A program made the translations under genes and the position numbers. Below, in pieces: positions 1,317 through 52,714 of a stretch of 64,000 bases of DNA. The number at the start of each line of letters is the position of its first letter. Position 1 is the stretch's first letter. Origin of the DNA: Polytrichum commune (taxonomy: Eukaryota; Streptophyta; Polytrichopsida; Polytrichales; Polytrichaceae); NCBI GenBank assembly GCA_950295325.1, contig OX485804.1, positions 19,282,001 to 19,346,000 on the forward strand, read 5' to 3'. The notes under the pieces are model-generated. The model saw only the letters and a list, made by a program, of their open reading frames with translations. It had not been told where the DNA came from and ran no database searches.

Positions 1317-4300
1317 CTATTTAGTGCTAAGATCGCGATGTTGGACGGTAACGCGCGGATGGAGGGTAACTCGCAGGCCGTGCTTCATAATGAGCGTGAG
1401 TGAAAGCTTGTATTCGACTTTGTGGCCGGGGACGAGCTTCACATGGTAATTTCGGAGGATGGCACTCGCAACGGACTTCATTTGCAAGTAAGCGAGCTCT
1501 TTGCCCAGGCACAGCCTTGGCCCTGCGTTGAAGACGGTGTACTTGAAAGGGGACTCCGGCGCGAAGACACCATTGCGTAGCCACCTCTCCGGCCTGTATT
1601 GTAAGCAATCCTTGCCCCAAATGGACTCCATGCGACCCATGGAGTAGATGGAGTACATGAGGCGGGTGCCTTTTCTGACGAATGTGCCATCCGGGAGGAC
1701 ATCATTGGCTGTCACATCTTTGTTGTCAATGGGAACAGAGGGGTAGAGACGCATCGACTCCGAAAGGGCCGCATGCAAGTAGTTCAGCTGCTTGAGCTCC
1801 TCGAAGTTGAAGGCTGATGAGTCATCCTCTTTCACCCTAGACTGAAGAGTGGTTCGAATTTCTTGCAAAATCTTTTCCTCCACTGCGGGGTGCTGCGTGA
1901 TGAGCCAGAAGAACCATGACAAGGCCACTGCCGTTGTGTCCCGCCCAGCCAGGACGAAATTGGTGGTCACATCCCGCAGGAATTTGTCTGTGTATGCGTT
2001 GCCATTCTGGTCATCCATCTGCATGAAGCGAGAGAGAAGATCGCACGGGTAGTCTGAGGAGGAGGAGCCTTGTTGGGATTTGAGAAGGGTTAATTCCTTC
2101 CTCCGCTCTGAGATCACATTCATTGCAAACTTATCCAGGACTTGAATTGCCTTGGCCATCTTGGCCTCCATGCCCCAACCCAGAGCGCGTGTTGTCCGCC
2201 AGAAAATCTCCGGGACCACCATGCGTGTGAGGGTGCCCTCCGTGGCGATGTCGAAGGCTTGCGCGAACGGTACAACAGGTAGTCCTGGGGCCAGACAGCC
2301 CGGATCGACTCCGAACCCCACCATGCATATGTTGTCAAAAGTGTACCGTAGGAACAGGTCTTGGAAATCAATGGGAGTCCTACCACATCCACATGCCATC
2401 ATCGCCAATTGCACACAATTAGCCCCGAAACCATGAACTGCGAAACGCATATTCAAAAATCACCTGCAACATCTATCTATCCTGCATCTCTAATTATGCC
2501 CTGCTAAGCATTCCTTGCTTTTCGCTCCCGAACGCTTTAAATAAACCCCAAGGCACATCACAGAATCTCAAAAACTTCTTTCAGACTGCAAGATCTCCAT
2601 CCTCTTGATAGTAAAGAATGCTACAAACACTTTGCCTTCCGATTACAGTAACTGGAGGTTGTGATTAAGCTCTTGCTGAACTGCCCACCTCATTGGAGTT
2701 CTTTAATCTTTTGAATCAGATTACAGAGATCTGTCGACACGAATTTTATGTTTGCTATTTCAGGGAGACATGTCGGAGGAATCAGAGGAAAGAAGTTGAC
2801 AACAGAGACCTGGAGGATCGAGTCGATAGGTGCTTGTGATATGATGCAGAGTAGTTCTGGAACTGTGATGAACTTACCGGTTCTTGGCTATTTCGGCAAG
2901 CACAGGGAGCATGCGTTGCTGCACCGAGGTTCGGTTGGACTTAACCATCAAATCCCTCAGAGTGCGCGTGCTGAATTCCAAACTGGCAGTCTTCCTCTGC
3001 ATCTTCCATAGCTCGTGATCGCTGTTGAATATGCCTTGGCCTAACAGATCATGAGAGGGGTATGTGAAGCTCCTTCCCTTTGGATAGTTTGCAAAATTGG
3101 TCTTCAGCACGTACTCCAAGTTTTCAGGCCTGCGCGTGACATCACCCCATGGCCAAATGAGAATGTAGTCCTCCAATTATCACGGTCAAAATGACACCAT
3201 CCTGTCAAACACTTCTGCCTCCATGTCTAGACTCTTAACAACGATTCATCAAACGAAGCCCGAGCGCTGGAAATAAAAACTCGGTCTTTGCAAGAGTGGA
3301 CCAGAACCCTTCTCATCAAATACAGCCATGTGAGAATTCCTAGGTTCCTGGCTCGAGTATTAAATTAAACTAACTACTTGTTAAATTCGCCTACTCAAGC
3401 ATCCTCAAGCAAATGTATCAACCAAAGCTCCTATGACCTTTATCAGGGTACGAATTCAAACAAAAGTACAAAAGGTAACCAGTTAATAGAGGCTAAAAAT
3501 AGCTAGAATACATAGATGTCAAATGATTTGAGGAAGGCTTTCTTCAGGCCGAAATCCTCGGGATCATTGCAATTCAGCAGTTCCAGGATACCAGAAGTCC
3601 ACCGCGTATCGAGTTAGTTGAACAGGTAAACATCATCATTGAACCCATTCAAGCTCCCATACACTCTCCTTTAACCGAATTCCACGAATTGCACTCCTGT
3701 GCTTGCACTTGAAAAGAGATTGCACTGCACTGATTTGTTAGCCTAAGTTCTTCACTACCCCGATGAAATCAGTCGACTTCTTCGCTAAGTAATGCCAAAC
3801 TCAATTTGAACTATGCACAAGTATTGGCCGCATGACACCTCTTCCAACTACCATGCCACGTCCCAGCACATTTGAAGTATTCAGGTGTAACTCTGCCTAT
3901 ATCTCCCTCGCCATTCCTCGGAATAACCCCATGGAGCATGCAAGTATCTGGATGAAGAGGGGAGAAGAGTACAGTAGAGTCGATATTGAGATGGAAAGTC
4001 TAGGAGTGATGAGTAGGAGAAACCTGCAAGTGGCGACGGCAGTCAAACAAGTGCACTTGGGAGCAATGGAGGTATAGGTGCCGTCATATTTCTTCAACAT
4101 GTCGGTCGTCCAGTCGTGCATGCGGGGCAGGTTCCACAAGAACTGCGGGGTGGTGCCCAGCACAGGCCACACGGTGGGTCCTTTGATCCGACTATACTTG
4201 AGGATATGGTACACCAAGAAGGCGAGCAGGGCGCTCACGGCCAGCTGTGTGATCACCCATGCATCTATTAATAAACTGCTGTGCAGGCTGATCCCCAGAG

Positions 4301-7113: not shown

Positions 7114-8275
7114 CCGATCTCGTTTACGCATGTATCTTTGTTCTTTGATCCTTGGCTATTCACACACCAATCAAGTATATTAAAGTGTCCGATTGAGGAA
7201 AGTAATCAAATAACAACCCGCATACCTTCATGCACACAACAACACGCCGTGGCATGGCATTGCAAGGGGGAGAGAGAGAATTATTGTGTACAAGCTTACC
7301 TCTTGATACCATCTAACATAAAAACTTGATCCCATTAGAGGACTGAGGAGCCTGGTCATCAAAGGGTTGCGGATTCCCTACGACATTCCATGGGTTACCA
7401 CCTTGGATCATGGTGTGTTAGATTATGATTCTACTTCTTTTCTTGACAACCTCTTATGCCAATGAAGGTGATTTAAAGTCTTACAATTGCAATTTGAAGA
7501 ACACATTCTGAAAGTAAACAATAAATTCAACCCAATGATATCTTACTTATCAAATATGAAAGAAAGTAATATTTTCAGAAATTATGATTCATAAGTGGAT
7601 AAGAATAATTATAATCATAAAGTGGTCTATGCATAATTGGGACTAGGAGAATTTCAGCCATAATTCATAACCCTGCATCAACATATAACATAATATTATA
7701 TAGTTTGTATGAAAATGGAAACGGAGTAACTTAGAAAGGTTGAGGGAGGGCATGTGAAACGATCATGACTGGGATAGAATGTAGAAAATTTTCAAATCCG
7801 AACTAGTAATACAATGCACCAATTTGACCTCTTATTAATAATGTGTCCAGAACCCATTATCATAAAGTATGCATTATCAGGTCCAAACCTTAATTATTAT
7901 ATGTACACCCCTTATTGTGTAGGAGTTGGGCACCCGGGCCTTGGATACATTGAGTTCCTAATATGACGAGATCAGGAAACGGAGTCTACCCACCAACCCC
8001 TGGCCAATGGTAGGGATCCAAGCATTTGAGCTAAAGGGCGCAATGCAACGATATAACCTAGGACCCGTGTGCCTGTCGATTCATTTTGAGGTTTTTGAAG
8101 CTAATTTTGATGTCACATCTAATCTTAAAATAGCTTCTGGGATGCATACTATTTTAGATGTTTTCTGTAGATGAATGCAAGGTACGCTCATATGCAGTAA
8201 TTCCCTCTCATCCATTCCATGGAGAGGACTCATCACCATCGACGAGTGAGGGTGAGTTTGAGCTGAGTCTTTCGA
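7114..8275. other. No gene or element recognised
   Basis: AT-rich DNA with only short chance frames. No terminal repeats or conserved motifs were found. Confidence 0.5.
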
Positions 8276-11737: not shown

Positions 11738-12489
11738 CAGGGTTGTCTATCGCGACGTCCTGCCACCGTCATGACGTCATGACGTGTCATGTCGGGGCGG
11801 ACCCCTCCGTCACGACATAATAGGGTCCACGTAGGGTCATACTAGGGGGAAGCTAGTAGGGTGGGTAAAATACTTACCTTCTTGCCAAGGTGGCATCCAA
11901 TGTGGCAGAAAAATCCGACGTGGATGTGCATATTTCCCTTGCCAGGTAAATCATTTTGCCTTTGTGTTTATCATTCTGTTAAAATCAAAGTAGTAAAATA
12001 TGACAAATGAGGGTGTGGGGGGGAGGGGAACGGAGCGGACGGGGGGAACGCCGGATGGAGGGCCAGATGGGGGCCAGATGGGGTACGAATGGGGGCCGGA
12101 TTGGGGTTCGGATTGGGGGGGGAGGGGGTTCGGATTAGGGGGGGACCGGGTTCGGATGGGGGGGAGGGGGTTCGGATTAGGGGGGGCCGGGTTCGGATGG
12201 GGGGGGGGGGGACGGGTCGGATGGGGGGGGGGGGGGGCGAACGTAGGGGAGCGGGCGCTAGTAATTTTTTTCCCACTTTACCTCTACTTTGCTGACATGG
12301 CACCATACGTGGACATCGTAAATCCTACGTGTCCTGATTGGGGTAATGTAATTACACAAAAAAATACGGTAAAATTCAAGTTCGTCAGGATAAAGACAGC
12401 ATCCGGCATAATGTCGTGACAGATACGTGTCATGACGCCACGACATTATGTCGGGATTAGCCTCCGTCACGACACAATAGACAACCCTG
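11738..12489. mobile_element. Non-autonomous hAT-type element, G-rich core
   Basis: The termini are CAGGGTTGTCTAT and its inverse ATAGACAACCCTG. The element is flanked on both sides by the exact 8-bp duplication CTAAAAGG (11730-11737 and 12490-12497). A CAGGG start with an 8-bp target duplication is the hAT signature. Subterminal regions on both sides contain CATGACG/CGTCATG palindromes and a CTCCGTCACGACA..AATAG block in the same relative position. There is no transposase; the glycine-rich frames in the core are products of the G-rich repeat. Confidence 0.9.
12005..12240 (+). repeat. G-rich minisatellite (GGTTCGGATNGGGGG units)
   Basis: Repeats of GGTTCGGAT followed by 5-12 G, interspersed with GGGGGCCGGA units, all on the plus strand. 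Many G-runs lie within 5-10 bases of one another, so the strand could form G-quadruplexes. It sits inside the hAT-type element at 11738-12489. Confidence 0.85.
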
Positions 12490-38796: not shown

Positions 38797-39859
38797 CACT
38801 ACAAGAAATCGCAGTCCGAATCAACATAAAATCAACTAATTTTTGTTGATTTCAACAGATTTGGGAAAAACAATGTTGAAATGGATCCATTGTGCGACAC
38901 AAATCAACAGAGGGAACATTTATCTGTTGATTTCAACAGAGGAAGATCATTTATCTGTTGATTTCAGCAGAGGAATTTTAATTATTGTTTTTTAATTTTT
39001 AAATAACACTAATTATGTTGAAGTAATCAATTACTATGATTCCTATAATTTACAATAATTAAATAGTTTGATTAATTTGCAATATTTAATTATTTTAATT
39101 ACTTAAATTTACAATTATAGTAAATTGTGAATGATTGTAATTTTGTTCTATTTATAGTAGCTTTAATTACTAATTAGCAATTACTCTAATTATTGTACTT
39201 GCTCATTAAAGTAATTACAATAATTACTAATTACAGCAAATATTAATTAAAGTAATTACAGAAATTGCTAATTAAAGTAATTACAGATATTAACAATTAA
39301 AATATTTACAGGAATGACTAATTATAGTAATAAAACAATTACAGTAATTACAGTAATTAATAATTTCTGTAATTACTATAATTAATAATTTCTGTAATTA
39401 CTATAATTATGTAATTACTGTAATTATATAATTATGTAATTATGTAATCTATGTAATTATAAATTTTACGGCCTCTTTATACAAATGTCTTACATACTCA
39501 TTCCACATCATGTGATGAGTGGTGGCTTGGTGGCTAAGGCCTCCTCGTGATAGCCAAGAGGTTCAAGGATCGATACCCTTGGACTTCACCCTTGGGCCTA
39601 GCCTAGGTTAGGTATGTGGCTAAGTTCATTTCTAGGCTAGGCAAGGTGGTCCTAGGTAGTTTTTGTGTAGGCCTGGGATGTGAGGAGCGGAATTACTAAT
39701 TTACTTTTTTTTTACTAGTATAACTTGGACATTTAACGAATGCCTAAATCAAGAGATATGTGTTAAAATTGTTCCGAATCAAGAGTTCCAAATCAACAGG
39801 TAGAATCAACAGAATTCTGTTGGAACTCTGTTGGAACGGAACCATTTTTTCTTGTAGTG
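38797..39859. mobile_element. Nested non-autonomous CACTA element, 1063 bp
   Basis: Ends CACTACAAGAAA and TTTTTTCTTGTAGTG with the 3-bp duplication TCA on both sides (38794-38796 and 39860-39862). Subterminal AATCAACAGA / CTGTTGATTTCAACAG motifs repeat at both ends. The interior is AATTAC-rich low-complexity sequence plus a SINE-like block. Non-coding. It sits in the last exon of the accessory gene, whose frame is restored by excision. Confidence 0.92.
39505..39715 (+). mobile_element. tRNA-derived SINE-like sequence
   Basis: GTGGCTTGGTGGCTAAGGCC resembles a pol III A box, and 35-40 bases on, GGATCGATACCC fits the B box consensus GWTCRANNC. A CCTAG-rich body and a T-rich tail ending TTTACTTTTTTTTTAC follow. 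Target duplications were not identified. It lies inside the nested CACTA element. Confidence 0.5.
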
Positions 39860-41905
39860 TCAAATAGGGGATAGCCGTTTTTATACGACTCCATGACTGT
39901 AAAAGAAACGTAGCCCTTACTTATCATCCTTGAGTGCAACATCCCACCTGCTATATTCTTAATAACATCTTTTCCAATGAATACCATTTTGGAGTCTTCT
40001 TCCTCATAACCACACATTTGTACCACATCTCCCACATTCTGCACATTGTAACAACCATATGTTAGTCACAAGAATATATTATTTTAAGATTGCGTGTTTT
40101 ACAATTATATCATACTCCATGTTACATAAAAAAAACCTCACCAAATCTTGAAGGGGTTGAATCTTCTTTAAAGCATTAGTAGCAAGGGGAGGTTTATCAG
40201 CCCGACGTTTATCCACCATCTGTTTGTCTTTTTTTTTTTCCATTTTGTTTCGCCCTTCTTTGATGGCTACACCTCAATTTCTTTACAATGTTTTTTTTAT
40301 TTTTTATTTGTTTACCTTCATTACATTAGATGTACACATTTGTTAGTAGGCTTTGGATGATACAATAACTGCCAATAATAATGGGTATATAATATGTCTA
40401 TTCAACAATTTTAGCATGAGATTGATTAATCCATTGTCCACAATCCTAGTATATTACATAGACTGTCCCTGGTCAACTTCCATCAATATAAATCCACAAC
40501 AATTTGACCTCAAAACATAAGCAATATAACTTAGCATAAATATTACTCATAGTGCAACCCCATTGGTTTAGACGTCACATTTTTGCAATATTTACAACGC
40601 CTCCAAAGTCAATTTATCGCCTTCACTCAATCGTATCCGCTTAGGTTTAGGTCCCTTCTCTATTTTTGCATTCTCATCATGTTTCTGGACACCTTGATTT
40701 GACGATGGCTTTCCAGATGTGTAAATAGCATCGTTAGAAATCTCTTGTACTTATTCATAATAATTTCCACTGAGTGCATTAAACACCACTACATATGTTA
40801 ACATATATTTAAATACATATATTAACTTTGATAAATCAAACTCCAAACAATTATACTCTTAAAATACAAAAAATGAATACATTTATAAATAAATAAGTCA
40901 CAAAACTTCATACTTTCACATGAATCATACATGTATTCCTCGTTATCTGATGAGGCTTTTTGGGACCCGGAAGGGTTTGTACATCCACCACAATTGGTTT
41001 TTCAATTACACCTCATAATTCCAAAACCTTGTTTATAGGTTTTTTTGACCTTGAGCGTGCAAGGGGAGACACACTTCTACGAGAGTTTGATATTAATTTC
41101 TCAACATTAGAAGGGTGTTCGCCACGTGAGGGTATGATAGCCACTCTTTCACTGAGATACCAAACTTAGCCATCACCGCATCTAGCGAGCTTTGAATTGT
41201 GTTGAATTTTTCATCTAATTGTCTTGCCTCCGGCCTTACGTCCTCAAATCCTACACTATTCGTACGAATTACATGAGGAAATAACTCGAAACCACTTTGA
41301 ACATCACTTTACCCCCCTTGATACAGTGGAAAATATTGTACAACCACCTTTTGGCCGTGTTGTGCTTTTATCCCTAAGAAGCTCCACCTCTATCTCATCT
41401 TGGCGGGGTCTCTATTTAATTGTGATGCCTGGACTAATATATATCGTAAGCAAAAATCTCCGGCAAATGCTCATCATTGTGTACTACACCAATATATTAT
41501 AGAATTCTTGCTCAATTTAGTTGGGATCGCGAGTGTGCTCCACCATATTCAACGAATTCCATACGGATAGACTTGGTTTTCCTAGTTCTTTCAATATACA
41601 CATCTTCGTTTGACATCTTTTGTTCTTCAACTATTGGCCTAGGTTACTTTTCAAGACCTCGCACCTTAATACCCTAGGTTCCCTTTTGAATTTACAATAT
41701 TCCCAATTCTCCTTCATACGCGAGTAGATATTGTCAAATGCCCTCTCATTCTGGTCATTAATAGTGTCCACACTCAAATCCAAATTGCTGGAGTAACTAT
41801 ACAAAGCATTGCGGCCTATACACCCCACTAGAAAATCCTGGAAAATAATCCACATCAGCCACAACTCATGTTAGATAACAACCATATTAGCTTGAAACAT
41901 CATAA

Positions 41906-42161
41906 TGTCACGGTATGCGGCATCGAAGGCCGCACCGTATCCGTTGGGTTTCATCCATCTAGATTTGGATGGATGAATCTAGATGTGGAGAGGAAGGCTC
42001 CTAAGTGAGGAACCTCCTCATTGGCTTGGCATTCTTGCCAAGTCAAGTCTTGTGAGTTAGTGTGTGGAGAGAGCTTGTGTGAGGTGTAGATTGCATGATT
42101 TTGCAATAAATCTTGAGTTCTTCTTTAGAGCTATTGTGAGTGTTCTACTCTCTTCCTTCTC
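41906..42161 (+). repeat. 5' LTR, truncated at its front (segment b)
   Basis: TGTCACGGTATGCGG to CTCTTCCTTCTC. It matches 51675-52007 with two substitutions and one 77-bp deletion whose edges share TTT. The first 108 bp of the 3' LTR (TGTCGAGGTG...) are absent here, and host sequence begins immediately at TGTCACGG. No standard plant tRNA primer site is obvious after it; TTGGCAAAAATTGC at 42164 is the nearest TGG-containing candidate and is weak. Confidence 0.85.
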
Positions 42162-44053
42162 ACTTGGCAAAAATTGCTTCATTTTTGTTGTTTTCTTCTA
42201 CATTTTTTATATATAACACACAAGAAAAGGCGTGAGGACAAGGAGTGATGAAGTTGCGAAGTTCTGGAGAGAGAACACCGCGGATTTGCGGCGCAACAAG
42301 ATGAAGAATGCTTGTTTTTGAAGGCCACATCAAGGTGAATTGTGGTGATGAATTATTGAATTTATTACGGAATTCCTTGTTATTTTTCCGTTTGCAAGCT
42401 TGAATTCGTATCATTAAGCTTGTGTAGAGCATTCTTCATTCCAATTTGAGTTCAAGTTCATTTAAAAACAAAATCAAAAAAAAAAGAAAAAAAAAGAAGG
42501 AGAGGAGCCGACTCTTGGAGCCGGAGCTCCTGGTCGGTCCCGGAGTGCAGAGCTGCGGCGGCGGCCGGCGGCCCGGGCCCGCGGCTCCCCCCCTCCTCTT
42601 TCTCCTCCCCCCCCCTCGGTAACCCCCTCCCCCGGTACTTCCCTCCCGTACCTTCCTCTCTTCCCCCCCGTACCTCCCCTCTCACCTTCCTCCCTCCTTC
42701 CTCTCACCCTTCCCCCCCTACACCTAAGCCCCCCCCCAAGCCTACACCTAACCTCCCCCCCCCCCAGCCTACCTGCGCCAAGCCCAGCTCCCTCCCCTCC
42801 TCTGCTGCGGCAGCAGCAGCAGCAGCAGAACTGCTGCAGGGGGGCAGGGGGTCGATTTTTATTTTTATTTTTATATTTAAAAAAAAATCATTGTGTAGGT
42901 AGAGAGAGAGATATATATATACATGTTTATTTGTATTTTTTTAATACAAATATATATGTATATGTATATATAGACAATCAACTAAGATACCAATTCTTTG
43001 GATCTAAGAGAGGTGTATCTTGACGGAGACATTCTCCATGGGTGTTGGGGGCATTCAAAATTTCAAGAGCGTGCAATTCTTGGGTTTATGAATAACAAAC
43101 TTTAAGGATGGATTGAGAGCACCTTCTTGAGTTTCTTGGGGATTGTCGGAGGTTTGGTACGGAATCATTTTGTTGGGAAAGGTGGAGCATTGCGGGAGAG
43201 GTTCGCAGGGGCGTCCGGCAACACGCGGAGGGCGTGGGATTGCGGCGAATTTGCGGCTAGCTTCATTTTCTCTTGCAACAACTTGATAGAGGTACTTGGC
43301 ATAAGCGGGGGTTTGCCATTTTCTTTTGTATAAAAGAAAATTAAGGGCATTGTTATTTATTTGGGGAATAGGTGTAGGATTTATTGGGGATAGGTGTAGA
43401 ATTTATTTGGGGATCAATTTATTAGATTGTTGGGGATAGGTGTAGGATTTGTTGGGGATAGGTGTAGAATTATTTGGGGATAGGTTTATATATTGTTGAG
43501 AAATTGCTTAAGGGTAGAACAAATTGTGTTGAGAAATACAAATTCTGGGGACTACAAGGAGGAGAGAATTTTATGATGTAGTACTAGATGAGGGATGTGC
43601 TTATGCTATTTATTTACTTAAGCAACAGGGGCTCTATATTTTGACCACCAACCGCAGGCGGGTGCCGGTTGGTCACAATCGCTTTGAATTTTTGCTTAAG
43701 TGTTGTGTTGGAGAAGAGGATCCAGTGCTGTTCTTGCATTGTTCCTTGTATTTTGTTGTGGTACCTTCCCCCTGTGGTGGGCTTGTTGTGTTGGAGTCTT
43801 CCAACATTGCCCCAATTTGTTTGTCCTAGATTGTGATAGGGTATTGTGGGGGTGAGGTCGGATTAATGACCGACGAGACCCTTGTGTGTGCACCAAGTGG
43901 GCGGTGCTTGTTTTCCTTATGGTGAGGCTGGGTTGATGACCAGCAGACCATAAGTTTGGTGGTGTTTGCAGGTGCAGGTTGCCTTTTACCCTTCACCTTT
44001 ACACCACATTAGTTTAGATTGTTGGCTCCAGTGACCGAACCCATTGCGGGTTT
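42162..44053 (+). other. Long non-coding leader of the retrotransposon
   Basis: A 1.9-kb leader before the gag ATG. It contains a strongly C-rich, pyrimidine-rich tract (about 42515-42785), a (CAG)n stretch near 42808, an AT-rich patch with TATATA at 42908-42970, and five or six copies of TTGGGGATAGGTGTAG(A/G)-type repeats at 43361-43490. The frames in the C-rich part, on the minus strand, are low-complexity Gly/Arg/Glu products. Possible roles (packaging, ribosome loading) are not shown by the sequence. Confidence 0.6.
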
Positions 44054-45622
44054 ATGGTTACAACGAGGAGCCAACATTATCGTTCGCCGTCTCCAACATC
44101 ATCACAAGGTCGATCCTCAGACCTTTTGGACAGTGAACCAGTGGTAGCACCCGACGAGGCTTTTAAGCCTACTTCGGCGTGGGGGACTACCACTCGTTCT
44201 TACGTCCATTGGGTGGGATCCTTCGACGAGATGGAGGAGGAGTCAAGAGGCGGCATTCGAGACCGATTTTCTGGTCGAGCAGGGACCATTTCCTTGCAAG
44301 ATTGGAAAATCCGGTTCAGGACATGGATGAGGGAGAAACGTCAACGCAATACCAACTTCAACGATTGGTATGCGTTCGAGCTTCTACCACAACATTTAGA
44401 GCACGAAGCTCTCCAGACCTATGAGCAATGGACGGATGCTCATTGGATGGAGCTGCGCCAAGTGGAGCGGTACTGGGAGACTCGGGTTGAGTTGGTATCC
44501 GCATTGAAGGAAGGCGCAGCTTCCAGTTTGATGGCCGTTCCGGAGGTTAAGACGGAGGTACAGGAGGGAGTATACGAGGTGGATGTGGAGGGAGCTTTTC
44601 CCATCAATCCCACGGCTCAGGGCCAAGCTCCCGCAGCGGCGAGTACCTCGAGCCCCATTCTTCCACTGTCACGTTATGCCCAGGCTACCCAGGCGGCATT
44701 AGCTTCTTTAGGAGCTCCGCCGGGTTTTGATCCTCTACAGGAATTCCAACTCCATTTGGAGGCGGAATATGGAGGCTTCCGCCGCGATCAAATGCAGCGT
44801 ATCCAGGACTTTCGACGGGAGAAAGATGACACACCTCGTACCATGTACACGAGGTTGGCGAGGTTTGCCAGGGAATCTGGAGGTGTTTTCGCCGAGAGCC
44901 AGTTGGTAAAGGTGTTTTTGTCAAAGCTTGACAAACGCCTCATTGACTTAGCTTTACCCAGGATCATCATGGATCATGGTGGCCGAGCGACACTTGCGGA
45001 AGCTTTCGCCATTGTTGAGCAGTGTGATCGTGCCTTGTGTCAGCACGACGCCACTGACTTGGTGTCCATGCTAGTGGATTCTAGCAAATCCCGGAAGGTT
45101 CCGGTTGCGGCTGCGGGGTTGGCGGAGGCAGAGGTGGACAAGATCTTGCATTGTTGGTCTTGTGGACAGGCGGGCCATGCTAAGAAGGATTGTCCTTCGA
45201 AGCATAGGCAAGCCCAGACCGCCACTACTCCGAAGCGGAAACCATTTGTTCCCGCTAAGGGCTCGACGAAGGGGACGGATAATCAGTTACCCAAACAATT
45301 GAAGTGTTCTCATTGTGGGCGAAACAATCACGCGGTGGAGAACTGCTTCGCTCTCCATCCTGAGAAACGTCCTTCTTCCGACCGGGAGAAGACGTTGGAG
45401 GCGAAGATTGGAGCCATGGAGGAGAGGTTCAAAAGCTTGGCTTCATCCGGCCAAATTTTGGCCTCACCGTCTTCCTCCGCAGCTCAGGCTAGTTCTTCCA
45501 TTCCGGATTACTATATGTTCGGAGCCTCGGGCGAGGTGGTGAGTTCTGCAGCTGTGACACGTGCTCAAACCGTGTCACGAGCCACGCCTTCGACCACAGG
45601 AGAGTCTGTGGACAGCTTATGA
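44054..45622 (+). CDS. gag: Retrotransposon gag (capsid/nucleocapsid)
   Basis: Starts MVTTRSQ, a common opening of plant Ty3 gag, at the first ATG of the coding frame. Capsid-type sequence lies at about residues 75-130 (ISLQDWKIRFRTWMREK) and 225-310 (FRRDQMQRIQDFRREKDDTP, RLARFARESGGVF). Two CCHC zinc knuckles follow: CWSCGQAGHAKKDC near 366 and CSHCGRNNHAVENC near 418. A serine/alanine-rich tail ends at TGA (45620-45622). The product should form virus-like particles and bind the element's RNA. The same frame continues open past the TGA into the protease for another 1.3 kb. Confidence 0.92.
   Translation: MVTTRSQHYRSPSPTSSQGRSSDLLDSEPVVAPDEAFKPTSAWGTTTRSYVHWVGSFDEMEEESRGGIRDRFSGRAGTISLQDWKIRFRTWMREKRQRNTNFNDWYAFELLPQHLEHEALQTYEQWTDAHWMELRQVERYWETRVELVSALKEGAASSLMAVPEVKTEVQEGVYEVDVEGAFPINPTAQGQAPAAASTSSPILPLSRYAQATQAALASLGAPPGFDPLQEFQLHLEAEYGGFRRDQMQRIQDFRREKDDTPRTMYTRLARFARESGGVFAESQLVKVFLSKLDKRLIDLALPRIIMDHGGRATLAEAFAIVEQCDRALCQHDATDLVSMLVDSSKSRKVPVAAAGLAEAEVDKILHCWSCGQAGHAKKDCPSKHRQAQTATTPKRKPFVPAKGSTKGTDNQLPKQLKCSHCGRNNHAVENCFALHPEKRPSSDREKTLEAKIGAMEERFKSLASSGQILASPSSSAAQASSSIPDYYMFGASGEVVSSAAVTRAQTVSRATPSTTGESVDSL
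45620..45622 (+). promoter_or_regulatory. In-frame UGA between gag and protease
   Basis: The only stop in one frame from 44054 to 46921. Gag and protease are in the same phase, and no ATG follows until well into the linker, so protease expression would need UGA suppression or a re-start. The 3' context (GCU CGG) is not one of the well-known efficient readthrough contexts, so a mutated sense codon is the main alternative. Confidence 0.55.
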
Positions 45623-46921
45623 GCTCGGCACAATGGTCCCGCGGATCAGATTGGTCAGGCACGCCTTCCATTGTCTTTTGGATTGGCTGATGCTGCCCAA
45701 TCTGTCAGTGGTCGCAATTCGAGCTTGGAGGCTTCGAGTCCGTCGACCGACGTGCTGCACACTTTGGCATCCAAAGTGTTGCACACGCCTTTGTTCACAG
45801 CAATGGATTGGTCGTCATCCGATATCCAACCAGCTAAGGTTTTTTACCTAGCAGGTAGGATATTGGAGGGGAAGGCAACCCCGTCTTCTCTTACTGTGGC
45901 TCAAGCAACCGCAGACCTTCCTACCACGGAGGATCCTGAGGAAGCCGCCAAACGGCGAGCGAGGCTTGCGGAGGAGGCCATTGCGTCTTTTGACGCACAC
46001 ACCTTGGATGGCCAGGAGCCAACCACATCTTATCATTCACTAGCCTCTGCAGGCGCAGCTTATCTATCCGATGTAGCTGCTCGACCTGCTCGCGAGCGTC
46101 GAGGCATTCGACCTGGCGTTGTACGGATGGTGAATGATACCGGCATTTTGGTGGTCAGTCGTACTGGGAGCAATGCTACCCGGGTTGCTCCCCGTTGTGT
46201 GATGATGGATTCAGGGGCACAACCGGTTATGCTCGGCAAGAGGCTTGCCCAAGAGTTGGGGTTGAAGGCCGAGGATTTGGCTCCCTGTCCATTCACCATT
46301 GTCACATCCATTGGTCACGTGGAGCGGGCCATGGGTTATACTCGGGAGCCATTAGATCTTAGCTTCCGAGTGAAGCCTGGAGATTCACCCGCACCTCTTC
46401 TTCTTAGGTGTGCGGTGACGGATGCGACCAACTATGACATTTTAGTTGGTCAGCAAGCACTTTACCCTCTTGGTTTTGGTTTGGACAACTGGACTGAGGA
46501 GGCGTGGATCCGACCAGGTTGGTCGGCTGGGGATGGCCGCAGAGAACTTATTCCCGTGGCTTTTGCGGCGGCCGCGACCATAGCACCATTATCTATGGTT
46601 TTTGGATGTGGTGCTATGGTGGACACATTGCCTTATGGTTCTGCATTGTTGGAGGAGTCATTGGCATTCATGGGAGTACAAACGATAAACGGGATATGGC
46701 ACCTAAGGGTGCACTGGTGCGCCATCCCAAGGATCCCCTTCCTCCTTGGCGTGATTCCGCCGAGCTATTTCGGAGGTGCGAGGATATTGTTCACTCTCTC
46801 ACTCCTAGGACACCGGTCATACCCGGTGTCCTCTCGGCATTGGCACATCCCATTTTATGGCAGCCGCCAGACACGGGAATTACTTTGGTGGAACTGTTTG
46901 GGGGCATCGGCACAGGCTTAG
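45623..46921 (+). CDS. Retropepsin-type aspartic protease domain of the polyprotein
   Basis: A linker of about 170 residues leads to the protease core: MMDSGAQPVMLGKRLAQELG with the catalytic DSG at 46207-46215, then TIVTSIGHVERAMG, then YDILVGQQALYPLGFGLDNW, the Ty3-type flap and C-terminal signature. The folded domain probably ends near 46560. The rest of the frame, to 46921, overlaps the methyltransferase frame and is not protease-like. An internal ATG at 45671 exists, but continuity with gag argues for a fused product. It would cleave the gag-pol polyprotein. Confidence 0.85.
   Translation, partial: ARHNGPADQIGQARLPLSFGLADAAQSVSGRNSSLEASSPSTDVLHTLASKVLHTPLFTAMDWSSSDIQPAKVFYLAGRILEGKATPSSLTVAQATADLPTTEDPEEAAKRRARLAEEAIASFDAHTLDGQEPTTSYHSLASAGAAYLSDVAARPARERRGIRPGVVRMVNDTGILVVSRTGSNATRVAPRCVMMDSGAQPVMLGKRLAQELGLKAEDLAPCPFTIVTSIGHVERAMGYTREPLDLSFRVKPGDSPAPLLLRCAVTDATNYDILVGQQALYPLGFGLDNWTEEAWIRPGWSAGDGRRELIPVAFAAAATIAPLSMVFGCGAMVDTLPYGSALLEESLAFMGVQTINGIWHLRVHWCAIPRIPFLLGVIPPSYFGGARILFTLSLLGHRSYPVSSRHWHIPFYGSRQTRELLWWNCLGASAQA
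46498..46921 (+). promoter_or_regulatory. -1 overlap of protease and methyltransferase frames
   Basis: The methyltransferase frame is open from 46498 and lies -1 relative to the protease frame, which closes at 46921. The only canonical X XXY YYZ heptamer in phase is U UUG GGG at 46897-46903, but it sits on methyltransferase motif I. The alternative is initiation at the in-frame ATG at 46696. Which route is used cannot be decided from sequence. Confidence 0.55.
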
Positions 46922-48135
46922 CGGCCGTATTGGAGGCTGGCCTCACGGTTAGACGGTATGTCTATGTGGACAACTCTCAAGTGTCCACCCGTGTGGCTCG
47001 TCACCATCTTCACCAATTGATGGTATTGTACCCCCAACAGTTACCTCCAACTGCCATTCGTGGGTGTTTTTCACGTCTCCCTCGTGATGTCACACTCATC
47101 AGTGAGGCCGATTTACGACATTTAGGTCCGGTGGATATGGTGATTGCGGGATGGCCATGCCAGGGCCATTCACGTGCTGGAGCCGGCCGAGGTCTAGAGG
47201 ATCCCAGGTCTAATTTGTTTTGGGACCTCATCCGCCTCATGCAGTGGTGGTTTTCCCACCAACATACTCCTCCAGGGTATATATTCGAGAATGTACCATT
47301 GTTGGGCGACTCCCGGGATAAGGTGTTGGAAGGTGATCATTATGTTCGTCAACACCTTGGAGATCCCATTTTTGTGGATGCCGCGAGCATTGGTTCTTAT
47401 GCCCACCAGCCTCGGTGGATTTGGACCAACCTCGCACCGTCATCTACTTTAGCTGCAGCATTTTCTGCAGTACCTCTACCTTTGGATCAGAAGGTGGATG
47501 ACATCTTGGATGCAAACCGGACCTCTTTGCCGGTTGTTCGAGATGATTTACCCCCGTTGGCATTGGTCAACAAAGTGGGGACACCACGGAAAGCATTTCC
47601 TACCTTTATGACGTTTCCACAGTCATTCGCCTTCCGCGATCGGGGGCCGGGTATGGTGTGGGATGTTCACACCAAAACCCACACCGAACCATTGGCTGAC
47701 GAACGGGAACGTGCCATGGGATTCCGCACTGGCACCACCGCAGCTCCCGGCCTTTCTGAGGGCCAGCGACGCTTCGTGTTGGGCCAAGCTATGGATCTTC
47801 ATACTATGGTGTGGACTGTTGCTTTATGCCTTTCATTGCAAAGGCATCGTGGTGACCAGTGCTTGTTTCTGGGGGCAGAGGACTCTGGTCAGGGGGCACA
47901 GCGGTCCACACCCATGGAGGAGGGAATTCACGCCATGGTTGGAGAAGCCGAACGAATTTTTCAATTCGAGCAGTATGTGATGGAGGAGCTTCGAGCTCAA
48001 CATTTTTACACTGCTTCGGTTTCTTCGCCTCCGGTGGTGGCTTCATCATCACATATTGGTGGTGATGAAGAAATGTCAGACTCTAGTACTAGCACCGAGA
48101 CTGGGGGCATGGTTAATGCCCCCTCCTCTCATTAG
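46696..48135 (+). CDS. C5-cytosine DNA methyltransferase domain (retrotransposon-encoded)
   Basis: Core motifs appear in canonical order: motif I LVELFGGIGTG (AdoMet binding), motif IV VIAGWPCQGHSRAG with the catalytic Cys codon at 47158-47160, motif VI FENV (47284-47295), motif VIII HQPRWIWTNL, a target-recognition stretch including FPTFMTFPQSFAFRDRGPG, and motif X GQAMDLHTMVW. Motifs VIII to X most resemble the DNMT3 style. Plant DRM enzymes have motifs VI-X moved ahead of I-V, so a recent DRM capture is excluded. About 479 codons from the ATG at 46696; the frame is open from 46498. The tail to 48132 is acidic and Ser/Thr-rich. It is predicted to methylate cytosine in DNA, perhaps the element's cDNA or its insertion site. 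No ADD, PWWP or UBA domain is visible. It ends at a UAG followed in frame by RT. Confidence 0.92.
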   Translation: MAPKGALVRHPKDPLPPWRDSAELFRRCEDIVHSLTPRTPVIPGVLSALAHPILWQPPDTGITLVELFGGIGTGLAAVLEAGLTVRRYVYVDNSQVSTRVARHHLHQLMVLYPQQLPPTAIRGCFSRLPRDVTLISEADLRHLGPVDMVIAGWPCQGHSRAGAGRGLEDPRSNLFWDLIRLMQWWFSHQHTPPGYIFENVPLLGDSRDKVLEGDHYVRQHLGDPIFVDAASIGSYAHQPRWIWTNLAPSSTLAAAFSAVPLPLDQKVDDILDANRTSLPVVRDDLPPLALVNKVGTPRKAFPTFMTFPQSFAFRDRGPGMVWDVHTKTHTEPLADERERAMGFRTGTTAAPGLSEGQRRFVLGQAMDLHTMVWTVALCLSLQRHRGDQCLFLGAEDSGQGAQRSTPMEEGIHAMVGEAERIFQFEQYVMEELRAQHFYTASVSSPPVVASSSHIGGDEEMSDSSTSTETGGMVNAPSSH

Positions 48136-48141
48136 CAATTA
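48133..48141 (+). promoter_or_regulatory. UAG CAA UUA readthrough-type stop context
   Basis: The methyltransferase frame stops at TAG (48133-48135), directly followed by CAA TTA, and the same frame then runs open into RT for 1048 codons. UAG CAR YYA is the established leaky context of tobamovirus replicase genes. The exact match, together with the absence of a nearby ATG in the RT frame, makes programmed readthrough the simplest explanation. Confidence 0.8.
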
Positions 48142-51100
48142 GAGTCTGTGCCAGCATCAGGTGGTTCTCCTTTGGTGGAGAGGGAGACTACAGAGTTTGA
48201 TGATTGGCCACTTGAATTAGGCCCTCGTCTCACTGGTGCTGAGGCACGGAAGGTACGAGCATTTATTCGCTCGTACCGTAGATGTTTTGCTTTTAGCCTT
48301 CAAGATCTTGAAGGTTATAAAGGAAAACCCATCCACATACAGTTGGAGGACGACCATCCCATTTTTCGGAGACCTTACATGCTCAGTGTTTCCGAGCGGA
48401 TTGGCGTTCAGGCTCGTTGCCGAGAGCTCTTGGCAGCAGGGCTAATCGAACTTTCCAACGGGGAGTATGCTTGTGCTACGGTTATGCCATCGAAGAAGGA
48501 TATCTTTGGCAATTGGACGGAGAAGCGGATGTGTGGGGATTACCGTCCAGTTAATCGGAAGACCAAGTCGGATCGGTATCCCATGCCGATCCCGGAGGAG
48601 TTGTTCGATGCCATCGGATTTTCTCGGGTCTTTAGCACCTTGGACTTGAGATCCGGATATCACCAACTTCCATTACTTACGGGAGATCGGGTGAAGACCG
48701 CATTTTGGGGAGTTGATCAAGATGGGAAAGATCAACTTTATCATTGGAAGTTTCTTCCATTTGGCCTGAAGAATGCACCCGCTGAGTTTCAACGGGTGAT
48801 GGATCAAGTTCTCTCTGGCTTGCCCTTTGCTCGGTGTTACATAGACGATGTGATCATCTTCAGCACAACACCACAGGAGCATGTGAGGCATCTGCAATCC
48901 GTTTTTGAATGGTTGCAGCGGTGGGGATTGCGCTTGCACCACGGAAAATGCAAGTTTTTCCATGACCGGTTGGCATATTTGGGGCATATGATTGTTCCAG
49001 GAGGTCTTGGGGTACAACAAGCTAAGGTGGACGCATTGCAGAAGATTCCGGCACCGGTAAATGTGCCGAGACTTCGTGCTTTCTTAGGCTTGGCGAATTA
49101 CTATCGGCGATTCGTCAAGAACTTTAGCTTGATTGCCAAGCCGCTCACCATTCTCACGAGCAAGGACCAACCTTGGACTTGGGGTCGTGAGCAACAACAG
49201 GCATTTGAGACATTGAAGCAGAAACTGGGTACGGCTCCAGTGCTTCGACGTCCAGATGTCTCCAAATCTTTCCAGTTGCATACAGACTGGAGCTCATTGG
49301 GTTTGGGAGCAGTTCTTACTCAGAAAGATGACGTTGGCCGGGAGTATGTTGTTGCTTACGCGTCGCGAAGCAACAACACGGCGGAGGCCAATTATTCGTC
49401 CTATGAGGGAGAAGCATTGGCGGCGGTATGGGCTATTGCCCATTTTCGGCCGTATCTTTATGGTCAGCACTTTACTTTGGTGACTGACCATCAGCCGTTA
49501 CGGTGGCTCATGAAGTCGGATAAGCTTACTGGCAAGCTTGCCAGGTGGGCTTTGTTGCTCCATGAGTATGATTTTGAGGTGGTACACCGTGCTGGGATTA
49601 CCAACATGGATGCAGATGGACTCTCACGCAATCCAAGTCCTTCGGATGAGGACTTGACCGGGGCCAGGTGGCATGGAGATTGTGATCGAGAGGCGGTTCC
49701 AGGTTGGCACGCGGCTGCCTACCTCACTTTATTTGCTGGTGCATCTGTTGAGATTCCGATACAGGGCTCGGATGATGAGACTGATCGGCCTCAAGCTATT
49801 GCGGATATATGGGAGGATCTTCCCGTATTGCATAAGCTTCAACAGGGTACCTTTCCTTTGTCTATTTCGGCAATGGAAAGGGATAGGATTGGACATCGAA
49901 TAACAAGGTTCCGTTGGGAAAACGGTTTGTTATTCCGATTGTGGCCGGATGGGACAAGGCGTATTGTTCCTAGGCCGGATCAGAGGGCCTCCTTGGTGCG
50001 ACAAGTGCACGAGGAACTTGGCCATTTTGGCATACGCAGGACACATTCGATGTTGCGTGGCCAATATTGGTGGACTGGCATGTATCAGCAGGTGGCTGCA
50101 TATGTCGGGAGGTGTGAAGTTTGTGACCGGGTCAGGTCTAGCTTTAACACCTTATCACCTCAGTTACAGCCCTTACCTATCATGGGATTAGGCTACCGTT
50201 GGTCGCTGGACTTTGCAGGGCCGTTGGTGGTTACACCACGTGGAGCAAAGTACGTTTTGGTGATGGTCGAGCATTTTAGCAAATGGATTGAGCTTGTTGT
50301 TCTACCCCAGAACTCTGCAGAGTTGGCCGCGGCCGCCTTTTTGGATCGTGTGTTAGCACGTTTTGGAGCACCAGCTGAGGTGTTGACGGACCAAGGGAGG
50401 GAGTTCCTTGGTGTTTTTGAGGAGTTGTGCACTAAGGCTCTCATAGATCACCGCACCACCTCTCGGGATCATCTGGAGGCAGATGGCTTGGCTGAACGGG
50501 TTGTTCAGACCACCAAGCGTGGCTTGAGGAAGTATGGATTACTTCGGGGAAGCCACCGAGATTGGGACCTTATGTTGCCATGGATTGCTATGGGCTATCG
50601 ATTTAGTAGGCAGGCCTCTTTGGCATCCTACAGCCCGTATCAATTATTGTATGGACGTGAGCCTATACTCCCGAGTTCTATTCGGGAAAAACTAGCTCCT
50701 GTTGTGAACTTGGATGACCCAGACCTTTGGGCAGAGTGTTTGCAAGAGCGGGCTCAATTCTTCCAGAGGGCCATGCCTATGGCCATGGAGAATTTGTCCA
50801 TTGCTCAGCACCGTGACACATTGCGTTATGCACGCATTCGTAGTGGTGCTTACCGGCCTCAGTTGCGGAGATTTCGGCAAGGGGATTATGTTTATCTTCA
50901 ACGTGAGGCGCCTACGACATTGGATGTCAGGGCGGGGCGCACTATCCTTCGGGTGAAGAAGGTGTTGCCAAGTGGTTTGTTGTTGTTGAAAGGCAAGGAT
51001 GGCAGGGAATGTCGCGAGCATTTCAAAAACGGTGCCCCATGTCATCTACCTATTGAGGGTACAGTTCATCCTGAACTGGCCGTCGTACCAGAGGGTCTTC

Positions 51101-51282
51101 CATGTTTTATGTGTGGAGACAAGAAGGGAGCGGCTACTATGCTCTTGTGTGATCAGTGTCAACGCGGTTGGCACATGGCATGCTTGCGGCCACCCTTGAC
51201 TTCTCTACCATCTGGACAGTGGAGTTGTCCTCGCTGTCGAGGATCTTCGGTACTTGGTGCTTCCACCAATCGTACTCAATGA
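48136..51282 (+). CDS. pol: Ty3 pol: reverse transcriptase, RNase H, integrase, PHD finger
   Basis: Reading from the UAG, RT includes GDYRPVNRKTKSDRYPMP, FSTLDLRSGYHQ, FGLKNAPAEFQRVMDQVL and the catalytic YIDD at 48838-48849 (residues 235-238). RNase H follows with LHTDWSSLGLGAVLTQ and YEGEALAAVWAI, then TDHQPLRWL. Integrase has an HHCC zinc site (HEELGHFGIRRTH with C-x2-C in CEVCDRV) and the acidic triad in SLDFAG, LTDQGREF and DGLAERVV, with 34 residues between the last two. The C-terminus (51103-51237) is a C4HC3 PHD finger beginning CFMCGDKKGA and ending WSCPRC, replacing the chromodomain of chromoviruses. PHD fingers usually read histone H3 tails, so it may steer integration. No frameshift or missing key residue was seen. 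Confidence 0.95.
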   Translation, partial: QLESVPASGGSPLVERETTEFDDWPLELGPRLTGAEARKVRAFIRSYRRCFAFSLQDLEGYKGKPIHIQLEDDHPIFRRPYMLSVSERIGVQARCRELLAAGLIELSNGEYACATVMPSKKDIFGNWTEKRMCGDYRPVNRKTKSDRYPMPIPEELFDAIGFSRVFSTLDLRSGYHQLPLLTGDRVKTAFWGVDQDGKDQLYHWKFLPFGLKNAPAEFQRVMDQVLSGLPFARCYIDDVIIFSTTPQEHVRHLQSVFEWLQRWGLRLHHGKCKFFHDRLAYLGHMIVPGGLGVQQAKVDALQKIPAPVNVPRLRAFLGLANYYRRFVKNFSLIAKPLTILTSKDQPWTWGREQQQAFETLKQKLGTAPVLRRPDVSKSFQLHTDWSSLGLGAVLTQKDDVGREYVVAYASRSNNTAEANYSSYEGEALAAVWAIAHFRPYLYGQHFTLVTDHQPLRWLMKSDKLTGKLARWALLLHEYDFEVVHRAGITNMDADGLSRNPSPSDEDLTGARWHGDCDREAVPGWHAAAYLTLFAGASVEIPIQGSDDETDRPQAIADIWEDLPVLHKLQQGTFPLSISAMERDRIGHRITRFRWENGLLFRLWPDGTRRIVPRPDQRASLVRQVHEELGHFGIRRTHSMLRGQYWWTGMYQQVAAYVGRCEVCDRVRSSFNTLSPQLQPLPIMGLGYRWSLDFAGPLVVTPRGAKYVLVMVEHFSKWIELVVLPQNSAELAAAAFLDRVLARFGAPAEVLTDQGREFLGVFEELCTKALIDHRTTSRDHLEADGLAERVVQTTKRGLRKYGLLRGSHRDWDLMLPWIAMGYRFSRQASLASYSPYQLLYGREPILPSSIREKLAPVVNLDDPDLWAECLQERAQFFQRAMPMAMENLSIAQHRDTLRYARIRSGAYRPQLRRFRQGDYVYLQREAPTTLDVRAGRTILRVKKVLPSGLLLLKGKDGRECREHFKNGAPCHLPIEGTVHPELAVVPEGLPCFMCGDKKGAATMLLCDQCQRGWHMACLRPPLTSLPSGQWSCPRCRGSSVLGASTNRTQ

Positions 51283-51554
51283 TCCTGTGTGGTTTTCATC
51301 ATCTTGTGCTTGTCCAAATGGAAAATGAAAAGTTATGGCTTAGAGACGCAACCAACATGAGGCGGTGGATTTAATTCTTTGGGATCTGATGGCCAAACAT
51401 CAGAGGCGATTAAGGATGGGGCTCACCTTGCACCCAGCCTACAGTTCCTTGGAATAACGTTTACCACACTAGTTAGTTGCGGAGCAATCTTTCATGATCC
51501 ATGCCCTTTAGATTGGCATTGGTCCTAGCTGCTTGGCGGGACTCCATAGTCAGC
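51283..51554 (+). other. 3' untranslated stretch of the retrotransposon
   Basis: No conserved coding frame between the pol stop and the polypurine tract. The 72-codon frame spanning 51156-51374 is out of phase with pol. Confidence 0.5.
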
Positions 51555-51566
51555 TGAGGGGGGGCA
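51555..51566 (+). promoter_or_regulatory. Polypurine tract
   Basis: TGAGGGGGGGCA immediately precedes TGTCGAGGTG. A purine run directly before an LTR that starts TG is the plus-strand primer of LTR elements, and it fixes the true start of the 3' LTR at 51567. Confidence 0.8.
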
Positions 51567-52007
51567 TGTCGAGGTGTGTTGTTTATGTGTGACTTTGCTA
51601 TGTTTTAGTTTTGTTTGTTAGTGGTGGTTGGTACTCGAGCTGCAGTGACACACGATCGTTATTTACATGACAGCTGTCACGGTATGCGGCATCGAAGGCC
51701 GCACCGTATCCGTTGGGTTTCATCCATCTAGATTTGGATGGATGAATCTAGATGTGGAGAGGAAGGCTCCTAAGTGAGGAGCCTCCTCCTTGGCTTGGCA
51801 TTCTTGCCAAGTCAAGTCTTGTGAGTTAGTGTGTGGAGAGAGCTTGTGTGAGGTGTAGATTGCATGATTTTGCAATAAATCTTGAGTTCTTCTTTCCCTA
51901 CTTACACTCTTGGATTCTCCCTTGGTGGAGTGAGAGATAGCTTGACTAATTGGTGTGCATTTGAAGAGATTTAGAGCTATTGTGAGTGTTCTACTCTCTT
52001 CCTTCTC
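51567..52007 (+). repeat. 3' LTR, full copy (segments a+b, 441 bp)
   Basis: Segment a (51567-51674) runs from TGTCGAGGTGTG to CATGACAGC; segment b (51675-52007) from TGTCACGG to CTTCCTTCTC. The a/b junction is the palindrome TGACAGCTGTCA. Segment b matches the 5' LTR. Confidence 0.8.
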
Positions 52008-52113
52008 TGTCGAGGTGTGTTGTTTATGTGTGACTTTGCTATGTTTTAGTTTTGTTTGTTAGTGGTGGTTGGTACTCGAGCTGCAGTGACACACGATCGT
52101 TATTTACACGACA
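52008..52113 (+). repeat. Extra copy of LTR segment a at the right end
   Basis: TGTCGAGGTGTG to ACACGACA is a 106-bp copy of 51567-51672 with one substitution (CATGACA/CACGACA). The genomic ATAA duplication follows at once. With the 5' LTR lacking segment a, the element reads b-internal-a-b-a rather than a-b-internal-a-b. Confidence 0.9.
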
Positions 52114-52192
52114 ATAAATATTTATATGCTATTCCATATTATCACAAGTTTAACAAACATTTAAGGGATATTACAAGTCCATCAATTGACTA

Positions 52193-52714
52193 TTATATAC
52201 CATTAACTTCAAGATCCACAACAAACTTTTGTTTTCCCTCCCTTACTCTCTTTTCAAATTGCTCCCGACATGCTTTGTTGGCAACCCTCATCTTAGCCTT
52301 CATTTGCGAGTTATGTGTTGATTTCCTTCGTATTGCAATCATATTTTTGCCAAGCCTGTTTTCTTCTTTATTACTATTATGTGACCTCACCGAGTGAAAA
52401 CGTGATGTCAATGTCAACTCATTTTTCACGATTTCCAACTCTTTCTTTTCAAATTTTGAGGCCAGCTTGGCTGCAACAACATCATCTCTTTGTAGTTGCT
52501 TCCTCCGCACTCGTACATAATTTTTCTCCTCTTCTATATGGATTGGCTTACTCCAATCAAAATTTTCACCTTCCTCTTCACCATCTTCTTCATTGTCACC
52601 ATCTTTCTCCCAATCCTCGAGATCGTCAACGGGTAGGTTGCTCTTGTCCCTAGGGGCTGAAGCCATCATTTTTTTCCCTTCTGAGTAGATTCTTGGATTT
52701 TTGGGTGGCTGCAA
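52193..52714 (-). pseudogene. CACTA accessory gene, middle exon
   Basis: A long exon-like frame: PPKNPRIYSEGKKM, an acidic block (DLEDWEKDGDNEEDGEEEGE), then a basic, probably helical part (EKNYVRVRRKQLQRDDVVAA, KKELEIVKNELTLTSRFHS, MKAKMRVANKACREQFEKR). It lies directly beside the retrotransposon, which separates it from the 3' part at 41864. It is on the same strand and in consistent order with the neighbouring pieces. The composition suggests a nucleic-acid-binding or coiled protein. I do not recognise a named domain. Confidence 0.5.

Follow-up and report, generated by a model that had tools for sequence, protein, structure and literature searches.

A Dnmt3-like cytosine methyltransferase encoded by a Ty3/Gypsy retrotransposon of the moss Polytrichum commune

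A methyltransferase between protease and reverse transcriptase

We analysed a 64,000-nucleotide stretch of the Polytrichum commune genome (hereafter the window; assembly GCA_950295325.1, contig OX485804.1, positions 19,282,001 to 19,346,000), which holds on its forward strand a Ty3/Gypsy retrotransposon whose family and anatomy we regard as nearly certain. The element is flanked by the target-site duplication ATAA (41902–41905 and 52114–52117) and contains, from left to right, a gag open reading frame (ORF) with putative zinc knuckles (44054–45622), a protease-region frame with the motif DSGAQP (45671–46921), a C5 cytosine methyltransferase (MTase) region (46696–48132) and a pol ORF in the MTase frame (48148–51282). 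Pfam identifies in pol a reverse transcriptase (RT; 48517–48993), an RNase H (49255–49569), an integrase zinc domain (49975–50139) and an integrase core (50194–50463), in the order found in Ty3/Gypsy retrotransposons, followed by a PHD finger (51103–51237). This finger is close to those of CHD4, PHF12, ATXR5, KDM5 and UHRF1, among others; PHD fingers of these types read histone H3 tails. The domain order places the MTase between the protease region and RT of the element, in agreement with the original prediction made for this DNA.

The MTase frame is open from 46504 to 48135, has its first ATG at 46696 and matches PF00145 with an E value of 1.4e-12 and 48.2 bits (cut-off 22). DNMT3A chains are the solved structures closest to the single sequence (best E 8.7e-11). 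A profile of 30 relatives, compared with solved structures only, gave 48 listed matches, including DNMT3A (1.2e-20), DNMT3B (6e-19), HaeIII (1e-8), HhaI (4.5e-8), 4onj, labelled just DNA methyltransferase (2.4e-7), and DRM2 (5.4e-5), with no chain named DNMT1 or CMT among them. Judged by similarity to solved structures, the MTase is nearer to DNMT3 than to DNMT1, CMT or bacterial enzymes. DNMT3A and DNMT3B are de novo methyltransferases, and their catalytic domains, the best sequence and profile matches of the element MTase, share its unrearranged motif order; the element MTase differs in being a domain of a retrotransposon polyprotein, accompanied by no ADD or PWWP domain that Pfam could find. 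The only NCBIfam matches, to dcm and to an IS481 integrase, stayed under the cut-off, and Rfam returned nothing at gathering score within the window. A chance match is excluded, because 89 scored places in the same genome match the MTase at 76–100% identity.

Within the MTase we located ELFGGIGTGL (about 46891–46920), WPCQ with the catalytic cysteine at 47158–47160, ENV (47287–47295), AHQPRWIW (about 47404–47424), ERERAMGF and GQAMDL, which we take to be motifs I, IV, VI, VIII, IX and X; they stand in canonical, unrearranged order. The central claim of the original prediction, a full-length C5 cytosine MTase in a land-plant Ty3-type element, is borne out by the Pfam match, the DNMT3A chains and the further copies. 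All five motifs it named (I, IV, VI, VIII and X) are present in the right order, but the first arginine of motif VIII is glutamine in the window copy. This residue is arginine in 51 of the 54 loci read there and the catalytic cysteine is kept in 52 of 54, the 54 including at least two that are one copy counted twice.

The description of gag and protease as intact fits other copies and not the one in the window, in which gag, protease and MTase are split by a stop codon (45620–45622), premature relative to the family frame, and by a frame change near 46660, where the protease-region frame departs from that of the family. L039 and L006 are readings of one copy from its two sides, and in this copy a single open frame of 1372 amino acids (aa) spans gag, protease and MTase. 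Uninterrupted frames round the MTase reach 1,360–1,372 codons in 10 of the 89 places found with the window MTase protein (P0001) and 1,386 codons in 9 of the 123 places found with PF00145. Because the three domains share one open frame in L039/L006, the MTase probably does not naturally begin at ATG 46696; read in this frame, the MTase is the last domain of the gag-protease frame and not an insert in Pol. The zinc knuckle of the window gag (zf-CCHC, E 0.0013) and Asp_protease_2 in the same region of L006 (E 0.003) fall below Pfam cut-offs, with motifs visible by eye; in a relative, P0182, zf-CCHC reaches 1.6e-4.

Copies, selection and relatives

The searched assembly comprises 408 Mb in 64 contigs, 406 Mb of it in C1–C7; a set of seven chromosomes would fit Polytrichales. 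A search with P0001 scored at least 89 places (667 first-look candidates) and a search with PF00145 at least 123 (353 candidates; the match at C2:4703606 falls in another part of the model), which merge into at least 163 distinct places, although a few of these could be host genes. Element copies dominate the genome-wide PF00145 matches, and host DNA methyltransferases (DNMTs) were not identified among them. Two subfamilies, A (that of the window) and B, are 60–63% identical in the MTase. Of the 98 best RT places, a sample of RT copies at 89% identity or above, 74 are preceded on their own strand by an MTase match no more than 6 kb away (distance 1.3–4.7 kb). The remaining 24 were read directly: MTase sequence, truncated in several cases, was present in 19 of the 20 read over 1.2 kb and in 3 of the 4 read over 0.6 kb, so that at least part of the MTase lies upstream in 96 of 98. 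The original prediction had named copies without the domain as evidence against it; such copies did not turn up, apart from two RT places that lack the MTase in the stretch read. Gypsy elements without an MTase may well exist in the same genome.

The ratio dN/dS was estimated by the Nei-Gojobori method from stop-free copies, as medians over pairs with dS > 0.02; 29 of 30 copies entered (L026 was excluded, its match being out of register), and the values are descriptive, as pairs are not independent. The MTase gave 0.333 overall (16 copies), with 0.510 for residues 1–55, 0.226 for residues 56–255, 0.299 for residues 256–330 and 0.315 for residues 331–400, compared with 0.299 for the protease region (20 copies) and 0.094 for RT (10 copies). 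Between subfamilies A and B the MTase value is about 0.12, with saturated dS (21 pairs). By these estimates the MTase core is under purifying selection, less strict than that on RT, and the linker behind it drifts; the neutral decay that would have told against the prediction is absent from the core.

Protein searches, each of which scored the 7,999–8,000 candidates sharing most words, gave 51 and 43 listed matches. Named relatives among them came from Marchantia polymorpha (eight entries), Calypogeia fissa (P0188), Sphagnum troendelagicum (P0195) and Closterium (P0043 and P0046); no vascular plant and no Klebsormidium nitens protein was listed. The trait is wider than had been thought, with relatives in liverworts and Sphagnum; known before from algae, it is present in land plants as well. 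Marchantia P0189 (1278 aa) is CCHC-type by its source name, and Sphagnum P0195, which carries the name DNA (cytosine-5-)-methyltransferase, has a protease-like stretch before the MTase by eye. These two and P0190–P0194 from Marchantia, gene models named methyltransferase or hypothetical protein, look like polyproteins of the same retrotransposon family. A protein with 65% identity to the MTase of the window, P0008, is assigned to the metagenome-assembled genome of a bacterium (Candidatus Obscuribacterales); its contig is only 2.4 kb long, and plant contamination of that genome seems likely.

At motif IV the catalytic cysteine is present in 16 of 16 chosen relatives. ECQ replaces PCQ, with the cysteine kept, in P0043, P0046, P0193, P0044, P0196, P0198 and P0199; P0201 and P0205 have ECK, and P0203 and P0206 have PCE. 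A second domain order, RT-RNase H-MTase-integrase-PHD, occurs in P0199, and the MTase position and the domains listed for P0201 and P0205 fit it as well; the MTase also follows RNase H in P0206, P0051 and P0198. For a tree, 57 of 85 proteins had an MTase match of sufficient length; four were dropped as incomplete (P0031, P0009, P0026 and P0027), and three copies from the P. commune genome and DNMT3A were added, giving 57 rows. One clade (98/90) unites P0199, P0201, P0205, the Closterium entries and two fused forms, another (98/100) the liverwort and Sphagnum entries, and the window MTase groups with copies of its own genome and unnamed relatives. Because DNMT3A, the outgroup, is incomplete and sits on a long branch, and the program gave a warning that long branches are joined, the tree fixes neither the root nor the number of captures.

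That retrotransposons can carry MTases was already described by de Mendoza et al. (2018) in Klebsormidium and Symbiodinium (PMC5890265), a paper that the original prediction cited for charophyte algae and dinoflagellates. There, KnitGypsy-Dnmt3 of K. nitens has Gypsy domains, a Dnmt3-type MTase under selection and, according to the Figure 4 legend, repeats built like those of DIRS elements. By this published description, the P. commune element shares its Gypsy pol, Dnmt3-type MTase and DIRS-like repeats, whereas the algal MTase lies in the Pol ORF and that of P. commune ends the Gag-protease frame before UAG-CARYYA, with a PHD finger after the integrase. SymbioDIRS-Dnmt3 and SymbioLINE-Dnmt are likewise retrotransposons with DNMTs, but belong to other retrotransposon classes in dinoflagellates and are independent captures according to the authors (PMC5890265). 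The words 'PHD' and 'moss' are absent from the main text of that paper. No land-plant retrotransposon MTase was described in the available parts of the literature searched, which was mostly without subscription journals and bioRxiv (PMC12344493, PMC6338049, PMC10952607 and PMC6453930 included). The same literature did not describe a Gag-side MTase before UAG-CARYYA, a PHD integrase or 4-bp duplications on split repeats. Elements of this kind have been found in algae and dinoflagellates; that of P. commune is a land-plant form.

Stop codon context and split terminal repeats

In each of 30 A-type loci, the window copy among them, the MTase ends at a TAG with CAATTA behind it (48133–48141 in the window; L026 one base out of register), which gives the stop the leaky type I context UAG-CARYYA. 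Among ten further loci, eight of them readable at the stop, CAATTA follows in L053, L054, L055 and L057, CAGTTA in the A-type L051 and CAATCA in the B-type L052, L056 and L060; in L058 a stop stands at this position with Gln-Ser after it, and L059 has lost the frame at this point. Every readable hexamer after the MTase stop fits CARYYA in both subfamilies. Upstream, 20 of 30 copies keep the MTase frame open over 900 nucleotides (nt); downstream, the pol frame with RT, RNase H, integrase and PHD finger is open. In 12 relatives ORF1, judged by eye from its printed end, also stops at a tail of this kind. In tobacco mosaic virus and beet necrotic yellow vein virus, a leaky UAG is likewise followed by CAA UYA (PMC2754532, PMC4132726); the putatively leaky P. 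commune stop differs in preceding a retrotransposon pol. Because the upstream frame is open and this stop precedes pol, the MTase probably belongs to an abundant Gag-side main product and Pol to a putative readthrough product. The context strongly suggests that a leaky UAG-CARYYA separates gag-protease-MTase, the main product, from RT-RNase H-integrase-PHD, the minor one.

The terminal repeats are split. In the window, repeat A1 (41906–42161) consists of segments A and B, without the segment X present in other copies, and is directly followed by a putative primer-binding site (42162–42181); a tandem array of 22-bp units lies in the 5' untranslated part of the element (43355–43485). On the 3' side stand a polypurine tract (AGCTGAGGGGGGGCA; 51552–51566), repeat C1 (B1 in split-repeat terms; 51567–51672), repeat A2 with segments A-X-B (51675–52007) and repeat C2 (B2; 52008–52113), at the right end of the element. 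The inserted form reads A1 - body - polypurine tract - C1 - GC - A2 - C2, with A-X-B making up both A1 and A2 and with C repeats of 106 bp. It was found in the window copy and nine of ten others with flanks (L034 showed no 3' end), and unlike ordinary Ty3/Gypsy elements these do not carry an identical full long terminal repeat (LTR) at both ends; the 3' B copy is truncated or diverged in L036, L044, L046 and L048. The element ends in TG...CA, and its 4-bp target duplications are perfect in 8 of 10 cases and have one mismatch in the other two; such ends and duplications of 4–6 bp are features of Ty3/Gypsy elements. Divergence between repeats within an element, as Kimura two-parameter (K2P) distance, is 0.005–0.040 in ten copies and 0.008 in the window.

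DIRS and Ngaro elements have split repeats of the form A1 - body - B1A2 - B2. The P. commune element shares this layout but has a DDE-type integrase, 4-bp target duplications and, by Pfam, no tyrosine recombinase match in its pol frame; the last two features set it apart from DIRS and other tyrosine-recombinase elements. Textbook reverse transcription, with the primer after B and the polypurine tract, would give a linear product with C-A-X-B at both ends. The C1/A2 joint consists of the right end of the element, GC and the left end, forming a 12-bp palindrome in the window (TGACAGCTGTCA; 51668–51679) and GACAGCTGTC in four other copies. The inserted form could be modelled as the linear product after its two ends have been joined (at B/C2) and the resulting closed molecule has been cut at C|A, so that integration would proceed from a closed intermediate, a model that leaves unexplained why, of the two C|A joints, it is always this one that is used.

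In 9 of 11 copies, part of A is complementary over 13–16 nt to the site after B, whereas 58 control windows per copy gave a mean of about 6 nt and a maximum of 8–10. Pairing in the window copy (putative self-primer, 42029–42043) has degraded to 9 nt, not above its control maximum of 10, and is 9 nt also in L049. Tf1 of fission yeast is self-primed, has ordinary LTRs and encodes no MTase. By analogy, the complementarity between this site and the element's own transcript near its 5' end suggests self-priming as in Tf1, in an element that differs from Tf1 in its split repeats and MTase.

Possible roles of the methyltransferase

The presence, conservation, position and stop context of the MTase are shown, together with its closeness to DNMT3A and DNMT3B; the readthrough ratio, packaging, catalysis and cDNA as substrate are inferred. 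On this basis we propose that a particle-borne Dnmt3-like MTase marks the new cDNA or the insertion site and aids quiet establishment. We hold this chain tentatively, at a probability of about 0.4. The MTase would be packaged in the particle at about the level of Gag and would methylate, de novo, freshly made cDNA or the DNA surrounding the insertion. Each copy would in this way carry host-like 5-methylcytosine before or upon integration, and at the target the PHD finger of the integrase may read an H3 tail. The element would gain by avoiding recognition as naked foreign DNA and by letting its insertions establish quietly. SymbioDIRS-Dnmt3 domains from Symbiodinium methylated CG de novo in yeast, and methylation of cDNA was proposed by the authors (PMC5890265). 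The cDNA-marking step is the weakest link of the chain.

Several observations weigh against this proposal. It is a prediction from sequence. When the Gypsy-borne domain of Klebsormidium was placed in yeast, no methylation followed, a result that the authors call inconclusive (PMC5890265). The MTase evolves faster than RT (0.333 versus 0.094, or 0.332 versus 0.065 in the six copies clean for both), and its C-terminal linker (residues 401–479) looks neutral at 1.03. No MTase was seen in the stretch read at L072 (1.2 kb) and L083 (0.6 kb), Marchantia P0191 is without the catalytic cysteine, and the intervening stop is not universal, as P0035, P0046 and P0193 hold MTase and RT in one frame. There is also no CG footprint: transitions between repeat copies in seven elements number 3 at CG, 0 at CHG and 33 at CHH (86, 34 and 878 sites), and the observed/expected CpG ratio of the coding regions (gag 0.87, protease 0.76, MTase 0.68 and pol 0.75) is not below that of a nearby cytochrome P450 region (0.68). 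The ratio is 0.47 in the 5' repeat, 0.55 in the 5' untranslated region, 0.51 in the 3' part and 0.52 and 0.34 in the flanks. CG depletion as a sign of self-methylation finds no support in either measure. The repeat copies of the seven elements differ by 36 transitions and 6 transversions, a strong transition bias without CG preference.

The faster evolution of the MTase relative to RT would suit an MTase kept for nucleic-acid binding or an RNA role (packaging, priming or RNA methylation) in place of DNA methylation, as would its place in the Gag-side frame, the variation of relatives beside the catalytic cysteine (WECQ, PECK and PCE), the inactivity of the Klebsormidium domain on yeast DNA and the RNA target considered for the LINE-type enzyme (PMC5890265). 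We consider this explanation doubtful: almost every locus and relative read retains the catalytic cysteine, the motif VI glutamate and the two motif VIII arginines, and the similarity of the MTase is to DNMT3. Alternatively, the MTase might methylate integrated copies of its family, limiting copy number and sparing the host, a possibility listed by de Mendoza et al. (PMC5890265) and compatible with some 160 MTase places, many of them decayed. Such self-restraint appears improbable, as the low repeat divergence in ten copies points to continuing insertion, there is no CG decay signature and host enzymes could do the same. A passenger gene caught once from the host, or a misread frame, might be supposed from the broken window copy alone, with its MTase out of frame with gag, but is virtually dismissed, being contradicted already by the copies, with the MTase in nearly all RT places, two subfamilies, liverwort, Sphagnum and algal relatives and a core dN/dS well below 1.

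Returning to cDNA or target marking, an extended version would posit a bryophyte-wide Ty3 lineage with a Gag-borne de novo MTase at capsid stoichiometry via the leaky UAG, premethylated copies, closed-circle integration opened at an internal palindromic end-to-end junction and a histone-reading integrase; as a whole we think it unlikely. Plants rely chiefly on DNA methylation to fight transposons, and a land-plant transposon possibly writing the same mark upsets a simple host-versus-parasite picture. Self-methylation of retrotransposon DNA becomes testable in Marchantia, a standard laboratory plant that has relatives of the element. A Marchantia methylome paper counts five DNMTs (MET, two CMT and two DRM) and, in the portions available, does not mention MTase-bearing retrotransposons (PMC5784723). 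For annotation, retrotransposon polyproteins appear to lie behind some of the bryophyte gene models that bear the names methyltransferase or hypothetical protein.

Elsewhere in the window, a host cytochrome P450 gene (1317–4364, reverse strand; PF00067, E 2.4e-56) is CYP86B1-like by its named matches. Its frame at 1317–2456 (reverse strand) is 98% identical to a JGI protein; the best named match, at 80% identity, is from the moss Ceratodon purpureus, with other named matches at ≤58% among the 120 listed, which points to a moss host. A 173-codon ORF without a Pfam match (52193–52714, reverse strand) begins 80 bases to the right of the element, and further tandem arrays comprise a G-rich 22/42-bp array (12050–12237) and an AT-rich array (39205–39465).

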